64,000 bases of DNA from Methanococcus voltae (lineage in GTDB: Archaea; AGJL01; Methanococci; Methanococcales; Methanococcaceae): the NCBI RefSeq assembly GCF_024807655.1, contig NZ_JANUCR010000002.1, positions 248,001 through 312,000 on the forward strand. The letters run 5' to 3'. The notes beneath the pieces are model-generated. The model did not search any database and had not been told where the DNA came from. It was given only the letters and a program-made list of their open reading frames with translations. Both the position numbers and the translations under genes were made by a program. The number at the start of each line of letters is the position of its first letter. The stretch's first letter is position 1. This document shows positions 47,562 through 52,512 of this stretch, piece by piece.

Positions 47562-48248
47562 TTATTCTTTTTCTTCTTTTCTTTTTACGAATGTATCTAC
47601 TAATGAAACTTTTTCAACTTCTAATCTTTTCATTAATTCGTTTGCAATTCCTAATTTAGCCATTTGAACATTTTCAATGAACGCAGCTTTTTCAGGGAGT
47701 GTTACTGTAACAGTTGATTTTGTAACTTTTGCTTTTAATTCTTCAGCTTTTAATTGTGGCATGAACAATTTTACAACTTCTTTTGCAACATCTTCTTGTT
47801 CTGAAACTACTTCTTCAATTTTAACTTTGTAGTTTACTGTTTTTCCAGCTAATTCGTGGTTAAAGTCTACTAAAATTCTACCGCCGTTTACACTTGCGAT
47901 TTTACCAACTTTACCATCTAAATTTACAGGCATTCCTTGGATAGGTTGTACATTATGTTTCTTGAATTCTTTTGCAGGTACGATTTTAACTAATGACGAA
48001 TCTCTTTTACCGAAAGCGTTTTCAGGAGTTAATTCAACTTCTTTTTCTTCTCCAACTTCCATTGCTGCTAAAACGTCGTCTAAACCTTTTAACATCATTC
48101 CTTCACCAGCAGGTATTGTAACAGGTCCATATACCATTTTAGGGTTGTGGATTCCGTTTTCTTTTGCTAATTCTTCGTTGGTTGTGTCGAATAATTTACC
48201 GTCGGTGTATCCTTCGTATGAAATTTTTATAAAGGTTCCTTTTTCCAT
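47562..48248 (-). CDS. Long-type FKBP peptidyl-prolyl cis-trans isomerase (SlyD/FKBP26-like)
   Basis: A 228-residue FKBP-fold isomerase and chaperone. The FKBP core includes ISYEGYTDGKLFDTT and LKGLDDVLAAMEVGEEKEVELTPENAFG, with the insert-in-flap domain (VQPIQGMPVNLDGKVGKIASVNGGRILVDFNHELAGKTV) typical of SlyD-like forms. About 80 further residues make the extra C-terminal domain of the archaeal long type. It helps protein folding in the cytoplasm. GGTGATTTTTT precedes the ATG. Confidence 0.93.
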   Translation of the reverse strand: MEKGTFIKISYEGYTDGKLFDTTNEELAKENGIHNPKMVYGPVTIPAGEGMMLKGLDDVLAAMEVGEEKEVELTPENAFGKRDSSLVKIVPAKEFKKHNVQPIQGMPVNLDGKVGKIASVNGGRILVDFNHELAGKTVNYKVKIEEVVSEQEDVAKEVVKLFMPQLKAEELKAKVTKSTVTVTLPEKAAFIENVQMAKLGIANELMKRLEVEKVSLVDTFVKRKEEKE

Positions 48249-48731
48249 AAAAAATCACCAAATTTTTTTATATTTAGTTTTTTGTATTGTGTTTTAGTGT
48301 AATTATACAATAATTTGCATTTTATGTTGCATTAATCATTGTGTTTCATTTTATATCTTATATTTCTATATCCTATTTAGAATATTTTTATTAATTACAA
48401 ACTAATAATTTAATAATTACATCATACCCATTTAAATATGTTTTGTATGATAAATAGGATTATTAAGAATTTTAATCGTTTAGTTTATCTAATTTAAATT
48501 AATTTAAAAAACAATATTACTTCAATTTCTTGATATATAAATTTTTGTTAACCTTATCAAAACTATTGATGTGGTTATATATAAATACCATATTAATATA
48601 CATAAAAATAAAATAATAAGAAATAATAGAAAAATAATAGAAAAATAATAGAAAAATAATAGAAAAATAATAGAAAAATAATAGAAAAATAATAGAAAAA
48701 TAATAGAAAAATAATAAAAAGATAGATAATT
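48249..48731. other. Divergent intergenic region, FKBP gene and mobA
   Basis: About 480 bp. The half next to mobA is mostly an 11-bp tandem repeat (48623-48718). The other half holds ordinary AT-rich promoter sequence. TTTTGTTAACCTTATCAAAA near 48544 is not a strong hairpin. No gene was recognised. Confidence 0.5.
48623..48718. repeat. 11-bp tandem repeat in the mobA leader
   Basis: About 8.7 copies of AATAGAAAAAT-type units (phase arbitrary), ending about 13 bp before the mobA start codon. The plus strand has almost no C and few G bases here. Confidence 0.9.
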
Positions 48732-49397
48732 ATGATATCAGCGATTATATTATCAGGCGGTAAAGCTTCGAGGATGGGGGGCGAAAAGTCCTTTAGGAAA
48801 ACCTCTAAAGAAAATAAGTATCTAATCGAAAAAGTTGCAGACATTTTGGTTGATATGAATTTACCGTTTATTACAGTATTTAAAAACCCCAAATTTATGA
48901 ATTACGACTCTGAAGAAGTAGAAAAGCAGACCTATTTTAAAAATAAGTATAAACAACCGATAACTTGGGATACTATTGAAGGCAAAGGTCCTTTAATTGG
49001 AATTTACGAAGGTATGAAAATTTCAAAGGGGGACTGGATATTAGTACTGCCCTGTGATATGCCCCACATCACAAGAAAAGCTATCGAAAAACTAATTAAG
49101 AATGTGTATTTTGCTGAAAAAAACGGTTATAACTGTATAGTTCCTAAACATAAAAACGGATTTATAGAACCTTTATTTTCGTTATACCATATATCTTCTA
49201 TATCAAAGCTTGAAAATATCGTTAATCAAATCAAAGAATCGGGTAAATCTGCACCTATTAGGCTTTTAATAGATAGTTTAAACCCCCTTTATGTAGATGC
49301 CCAGGAAATAGATATCAATCAAAAAACTTACGTTAATATAAACACCTTTGAAGATTTTGATAATTTGAATAAAGATTTAGGCAAAAGAGTTAGATAA
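48732..49397 (+). CDS. mobA: Molybdenum cofactor guanylyltransferase
   Basis: MobA attaches GMP to molybdopterin, giving the dinucleotide cofactor of formate and formylmethanofuran dehydrogenases. It begins MISAIILSGGKASRMGGEKS (nucleotide-binding loop at 8-17), and WILVLPCDMPHITRKAIEKL carries the Asp that binds Mg. EGKGPLIGIYEGM is also typical. It is 221 residues long. No Shine-Dalgarno motif is visible: GATAGATAATT lies before the ATG, and beyond that comes an 11-bp repeat. Translation may be weak or leaderless, or depend on the repeat. Confidence 0.88.
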   Translation: MISAIILSGGKASRMGGEKSFRKTSKENKYLIEKVADILVDMNLPFITVFKNPKFMNYDSEEVEKQTYFKNKYKQPITWDTIEGKGPLIGIYEGMKISKGDWILVLPCDMPHITRKAIEKLIKNVYFAEKNGYNCIVPKHKNGFIEPLFSLYHISSISKLENIVNQIKESGKSAPIRLLIDSLNPLYVDAQEIDINQKTYVNINTFEDFDNLNKDLGKRVR

Positions 49398-49432: not shown

Positions 49433-50149
<717 letters not shown>

Positions 50150-52150: not shown

Positions 52151-52512
52151 CTATGTATAAAATTACAAACTTATAAAAATAAAATCTACTTTTTAAATTT
52201 TTAAATTTTTAAATTTTTTAAAACAATTTTTAAAATAGCAACAAAGTAATATATTAAATAATTAAAATAGAAATAGTAATAATTGATTAACTCAATTATT
52301 TGTTATCTCTTTTATCTTTTTTCATTCTTCTGAGTCTTTTCTTGTAGTGCTTCCATCTCATTTGTCCTTTCTTTTTCCATCTTCTTGAACTTCTTTTGAT
52401 AGTACCACGCTCCTTTTTTAGCTTTTTTTTAATATACACTTATAGAATATAAATGTTAGTATTTATATTGACTAAATTCAATAGATAAATGAATCTATTC
52501 AAAAATATGAAT
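52151..52512. other. Region between hemC and gatC containing a basic micro-ORF
   Basis: About 360 bp without a long frame. Next to hemC are repeated AAATTTTT tracts (52188-52222), which can terminate transcription. The minus strand from about 52425 to 52296 is coding-like for a very basic peptide (see the L41e candidate), with TATA-like sequence near 52444-52470. Confidence 0.5.
52296..52361 (-). CDS. Possible ribosomal protein L41e (21-residue, very basic)
   Basis: From ATG 52361 the frame reads MRWKHYKKRLRRMKKDKRDN plus a final Lys. Archaeal L41e proteins are about 25 residues, start MRWK-like and are rich in Arg/Lys, so the match is good but the C-terminus differs from what I remember. 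GAAAGGAC precedes the ATG. The same frame stays open upstream for another ~20 basic codons (KRSSRRWKKKGQ) without a standard start codon, so the true N-terminus is uncertain. It lies downstream of the S17e-dapA cluster on the same strand. Confidence 0.5.
   Translation of the reverse strand: MRWKHYKKRLRRMKKDKRDNK

Follow-up and report, generated by a model that had tools for sequence, protein, structure and literature searches.

What is a long and almost perfectly regular 11-bp repeat doing directly before a molybdenum cofactor-type gene in Methanococcus voltae, and could its copy number act as a switch on the expression of that gene? The repeat lies in the window analysed here, a 64,000-nucleotide stretch of a 1.86-Mb draft genome in 18 contigs (contig NZ_JANUCR010000002.1, positions 248,001 to 312,000; coordinates below are those of the window). 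We consider it most likely, with a probability of about 65%, to be a species-private AT-rich minisatellite, probably born by slippage and tolerated in the predicted 5' untranslated leader of mobA.

The mobA-type gene and its 11-bp array

The gene that follows the array (48732..49397, plus strand) encodes an NTP transferase of 221 amino acids. Its best matches are MobA families, under their curated cut-offs: the best NCBIfam MobA score is 94.3 bits against a cut-off of 164, while the match to Pfam NTP_transf_3 exceeds its own cut-off. Because the Pfam cut-off was passed and the NCBIfam MobA cut-off missed, we call the gene MobA-type only. Identity as the CobY guanylyltransferase was rejected (32 bits against a cut-off of 250); the CobY of this genome is encoded by a separate gene elsewhere. 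Divergent from mobA is a gene for a FKBP26-type peptidyl-prolyl isomerase (47562..48248, minus strand). The gene after mobA, encoding a DUF2119 protein, carries an in-frame trinucleotide repeat at about 49548-49605 that encodes Asn-Thr pairs and an Asn run and appears to be absent from the sister sequences.

The perfect period-11 tandem run spans 48621..48716 on the plus strand (96 bp, 8.73 copies), in line with the almost nine units reported in the initial annotation. Decayed copies flank this core on both sides, and with them the array extends over 48610..48724 (plus strand, 115 bp), to which Tandem Repeats Finder assigns 10.5 copies and a score of 202. The unit is intergenic and has A or T at 10 of its 11 bases. 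The gap to the ATG at 48732 was originally given as 13 bp; it is 15 bases when counted from the perfect run and 7 from the decayed edge. When the 483-bp intergenic region was shuffled 200 times with its dinucleotides preserved, the top score was 86, against the real 202, and 65 of the shuffles contained an array scoring at least 50. A pattern of three units gave seven overlapping matches, six exact and one with two mismatches, against none in 100 shuffles of the window.

Within a 464-kb sample of the genome, the array ranks third of 465, coding arrays included. It belongs to a known class of repeats and is ordinary but for its unusual length and regularity. The two arrays that outrank it lie at L034 10772-10923 (17-bp unit, 9 copies) and L031 14215-14329 (11-bp unit, 10.5 copies). 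In a search of seven genomes, the exact two-unit sequence was found in its own genome only within the mobA array, and once elsewhere, in the sister genome G006. A dispersed-repeat search of the genome returned at least 42 matches (40 of the 227 candidates were scored), among them the locus itself and one match inside the mobA-type gene; we take the others for general A-rich similarity. Since the exact two-unit sequence is local, a dispersed repeat family was rejected.

A conserved promoter candidate upstream of the array

Between the FKBP26 gene and the array lies a noncoding block (48360..48587) that is 93-94% identical in both sister species; elsewhere in the genus it finds only short weak matches, as does the wider stretch 48360-48595. 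By bit score, the FKBP26-mobA region is the second most conserved of the 39 intergenic regions of at least 100 bp in the window, 36 of which matched both sisters. The best BLAST alignments to both sisters run from the FKBP26 start through 48587 and then cease. The last conserved bases ahead of the divergent leaders are those of a TATA-like box, TATATAAATA, at 48578..48587 on the plus strand, 154 bp before the mobA ATG and 140 and 139 bp before it in the sisters. Because conservation ends at its last base, we regard this box as the best promoter candidate. A second TATATAAA (48534..48541, plus strand) stands 198 bp before the ATG, and its 44-bp spacing to the first is common to all three genomes.

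Archaeal transcription typically starts some 25-30 bp past the beginning of the TATA box. From the position of the TATA-like box, the mobA leader is thus predicted to be about 126 nt long (48606..48731, plus strand), and the 115-bp array would make up about 90% of it. The array lies between box and ATG and appears to sit in the mobA leader, as originally described; we infer a transcript start upstream of it. The companion suggestion, that copy number would alter either promoter spacing or leader length, survives in its second half: a gain or loss of units downstream of the box should alter the length of the leader and leave promoter spacing as it is. The predicted leader is 71% A and 0% C; its sense strand is free of T4 runs, and its antisense strand has ten. 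Long leaders have been described as common in methanogens (PMC6705878).

Across genes, TATA-like motifs peaked too weakly by position to be of help, and a scan for sigma-70-type promoters, the wrong type for an archaeon, told nothing, with 4 sites found where shuffles predict 7.0. A structured RNA or riboswitch in the leader, such as a molybdenum-cofactor riboswitch, was also rejected. No Rfam family matches near mobA at gathering threshold, the single match at E<=1 over 48100-48900 is sub-threshold and inside the mobA-type gene, and the array is unpaired in the predicted fold. The same fold places the start codon in a weak hairpin (-5.5 kcal/mol, z -1.72), and 13 of 200 shuffles fold equally well.

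The conserved block has features of its own. A 15-nt inverted repeat with 87% complementarity encloses, at 48370-48460, sequence that is identical or nearly so in the three genomes of the clade, and a six-frame translation of the block, judged by eye, gave no convincing frame for a small protein. The most conserved of the 39 intergenic regions by bit score follows hemC (52236-52507) and, over about 272 bp, shares 93-95% identity with both sisters. It has no Rfam match at gathering threshold, and may hold an unrecognised RNA or regulatory element.

The Shine-Dalgarno sequence of mobA

The initial annotation described mobA as lacking the clear ribosome binding site found at most other genes, and duplex energies bear this out. 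Its best Shine-Dalgarno duplex has an energy of -1.1 kcal/mol, while the median for 391 genes is -6.5; 80% of these genes reach -4 kcal/mol or better and 9.2% equal mobA or are weaker. As the start-codon caller rewards Shine-Dalgarno motifs, these percentages flatter the other genes and somewhat inflate the contrast. Duplexes were scored with the canonical anti-Shine-Dalgarno sequence in place of the host's own, since the draft genome yielded no 16S rRNA. The corresponding mobA values are -3.3 to -4.0 in six other members of the genus. At 14 further loci of the family, where starts were set by a crude rule, they are -2.8 to -5.0 in 13 cases and -9.3 in one. The weakness of the mobA Shine-Dalgarno is partly a family trait.

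Species-private arrays in a repeat-rich clade

In seven members of the genus, the sequence ahead of mobA resembles the beginning of the divergent FKBP26 gene. The region is 109-110 bp long in four congeners, which carry TATATAAA 43-44 bp before the mobA ATG, and 467-483 bp long in the three-genome clade to which the window belongs. The mobA leaders of the two sisters hold arrays of other units, of 10 bp in G005 and 21 bp in G006, and an A-rich array is present in the mobA leader of all three clade genomes.

Upstream arrays within 160 bp were then compared for those 38 genes of the window that have orthologs in both sisters and no less than 100 bp of upstream region. An array is present in at least one of the three genomes for 25 of these genes, in all three for seven and in none for 13. 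For ten genes, an upstream array in the genome of the window is matched by one in a sister or in both, and in all ten the unit listed for it differs from those of the sisters; the two sisters share some units with each other. That seven of the 38 genes have arrays in every one of the three genomes, a count uncorrected for kinship, is suggestive.

Such arrays are common throughout the clade. Their density per 100 kb is 100, 84 and 119 in its three genomes, 6-13 times that of two congeners (15 and 9); four other members of the family have 46, 68, 42 and 10. The 328 intergenic regions of the 464-kb sample contain 326 arrays, where 20 shuffles average 88.1 (range 77-101); of arrays scoring at least 100 there are 42, against 4.1. 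The top shuffle score across these regions was 232, which indicates that a few of them are near simple sequence. One array of the sister G006 (L041 11444-11683) is 240 bp long, scores 459 and lies 7 bp from a called start; its opening bases are much more G+C-rich than the AT-rich arrays, and it is perhaps a different kind of repeat.

We propose that replication slippage gives rise to arrays of this kind locally, as the decayed edges around the perfect core suggest. The promoter common to the sister species would stay fixed just upstream, and the array would extend the mobA leader to the predicted length. It would be tolerated and not selected, since it gives an A-rich RNA that has no U4 terminator tracts. 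Rapid turnover by slippage would account for the differing units and for the differing array densities. The mobA array thus looks like one of the lineage's many young, fast-changing repeats and not like a genetic switch. A purely local birth is countered by a remark on similar short-repeat satellites across genomes, for which a possible transposition mechanism and a function have been suggested (PMC6749651).

Strand bias and possible selection on the leader

The presence of A-rich arrays in all three mobA leaders could also mean that a long A-rich leader is selected. Under such selection, a sense strand free of U4 tracts would suit a gene almost without a Shine-Dalgarno sequence, and the antisense T5 tracts would terminate antisense transcripts. 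Besides the recurrence at mobA and the one-sided T4 runs of its predicted leader, this reading draws on the strand composition of leader arrays. These were defined as arrays whose end lies no more than 60 bp from a called start codon, and the three clade genomes, sampled over 464, 300 and 300 kb, together supplied 148. On the sense strand, 102 of them are A-rich and 40 are T-rich; among the 322 arrays near stop codons the corresponding numbers are 135 and 182. A sharper signal comes from paired U4 tracts, which occur on the sense strand only in 8 leader arrays and on the antisense strand only in 53; these counts are not fully independent, since the genomes are related, the sisters share some arrays and the gene calls are simple. 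Efficient binding of the termination factor aCPSF1 in M. maripaludis takes at least two U4 tracts (PMC8716108). When 148 control windows, matched in length and position but not in skew, were resampled 2000 times, the mean sense fraction was 0.36 against the observed 0.13, and no resample was as low. Eight of the 40 T-rich leader arrays have a U4 pair on the sense strand, against 52 of the 102 A-rich arrays with the mirror pair (Fisher p 0.0007).

Against selection, plain A-richness above background is not supported once |A-T skew| is matched. Matched leader arrays are A-rich in 98 of 138 cases against 91.0 expected (z 1.28), with no significant excess; a slight one is seen in strong arrays only (25 of 29 against 20.0 expected, z 2.04). 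The T excess of trailer arrays remains after the same matching (128 of 296 A-rich, 157 expected). A cruder test by region halves matches background in most classes, and arrays in the 3' half of tandem regions are A-rich in proportions of 0.60, 0.59 and 0.72 against 0.63, 0.63 and 0.55 expected. Polarity is absent from six other family genomes (100 kb each), where 38 leader arrays comprise 18 A-rich and 18 T-rich ones, with U4 pairs on the sense strand in 8 and on the antisense strand in 12, although this count excluded arrays with periods above 60 that the U4 count of the three clade genomes included. The predicted hairpin, moreover, holds the start codon, which disfavours a role in ribosome access and for which we rate the reading lower. 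Selection for an A-rich leader is accordingly an unlikely explanation of the mobA array.

A related and tentative idea, with a somewhat better but still small chance of being right, concerns the whole clade. Arrays may turn over between promoter and start codon, and mainly units without paired U4 tracts on the sense strand may persist, since units with them would recruit the aCPSF1 terminator and be lost. Leaders would then filter transcription by direction, letting mRNA pass and blocking antisense RNA, with mobA as a clean example.

Other readings of the array

If the true promoter lay within or after the array, the repeat would be upstream DNA and not leader. The TATATAAA sites 43-44 bp before the ATG in the four congeners fit this arrangement, as does an extra one 82 bp before the mobA ATG in one sister. 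The genome of the window, however, has no TATATAAA closer than 154 bp, and conservation ends at the upstream box; we think such a promoter quite improbable.

It is more doubtful still that the array is a phase-variable contingency locus, as the initial annotation implied, in which slippage in copy number changes leader length and so makes mobA expression differ from cell to cell. The long perfect run is a tract capable of slippage, it falls within the predicted leader, and this location alone still allows an effect on expression. The array nevertheless lies in neither the promoter spacer nor the reading frame, being downstream of the TATA-like box, and the sister species show other units at the same place in lieu of copy-number variants of the 11-bp unit. 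The molybdenum cofactor is probably required for methanogenesis, so an off state of mobA would be costly.

Least probable, and barely credible on present evidence, is that A5 tracts every 11 bp bend the DNA past the promoter and affect promoter or histone behaviour: coherence at 10.5 bp is 0.80 over the ten tracts of the mobA array and above 0.7 in 29% of 51 leader arrays with at least three tracts (13% of 193 trailer arrays, 17% of 1016 random windows), but 25% of 89 arrays far from genes also exceed 0.7, the sister leaders reach 0.55 and 0.48, and intergenic periods are widely spread.

Comparison with known repeats and terminators

A limited literature search, confined to titles and the beginnings of abstracts, found no paper on the mobA-leader locus or on a U4 strand bias; nor did this limited search find work joining tandem repeats with U-tract terminators. 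As a single locus, the mobA array carries little weight. It illustrates how, in an AT-rich archaeon with abundant intergenic repeats, a leader can be rebuilt from species-private arrays while its promoter stays fixed. Should the strand bias hold in more genomes and in transcript data, it would mean that transcription termination influences which repeats persist.

The antisense strand of the array, with its repeated T5 tracts, resembles the aCPSF1-dependent U-tract terminators of M. maripaludis and fits their requirement for two U4 tracts (PMC8716108). Unlike those terminators, the sense strand has no U4 tracts, and any terminator role here is putative. Tandem repeats of 6-11 bp are extremely over-represented in M. 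voltae intergenic regions, and over-represented in M. aeolicus too (PMC4060949). The mobA array agrees with these repeats in unit length and intergenic placement; that work, in its available part, is a statistical survey without single loci, unlike the analysis of one locus given here.

The closest counterparts are the 48 satellites reported for M. voltae, all very AT-rich and likely of local origin (Subirana and Messeguer 2019, PMC6749651). The G+C content of the present genome (28.6% in the 464-kb sample) equals the M. voltae value given there. The mobA array is likewise AT-rich, built of a short unit and set in an array-rich genome, and it has the features by which satellites are recognised: a short unit (90-100% AT), a noncoding position and a local occurrence. 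The satellites in the available part of that account are not placed relative to promoter and strand, unlike the mobA array, which can be set between a candidate promoter and the start codon, with its A-rich strand in the sense direction.
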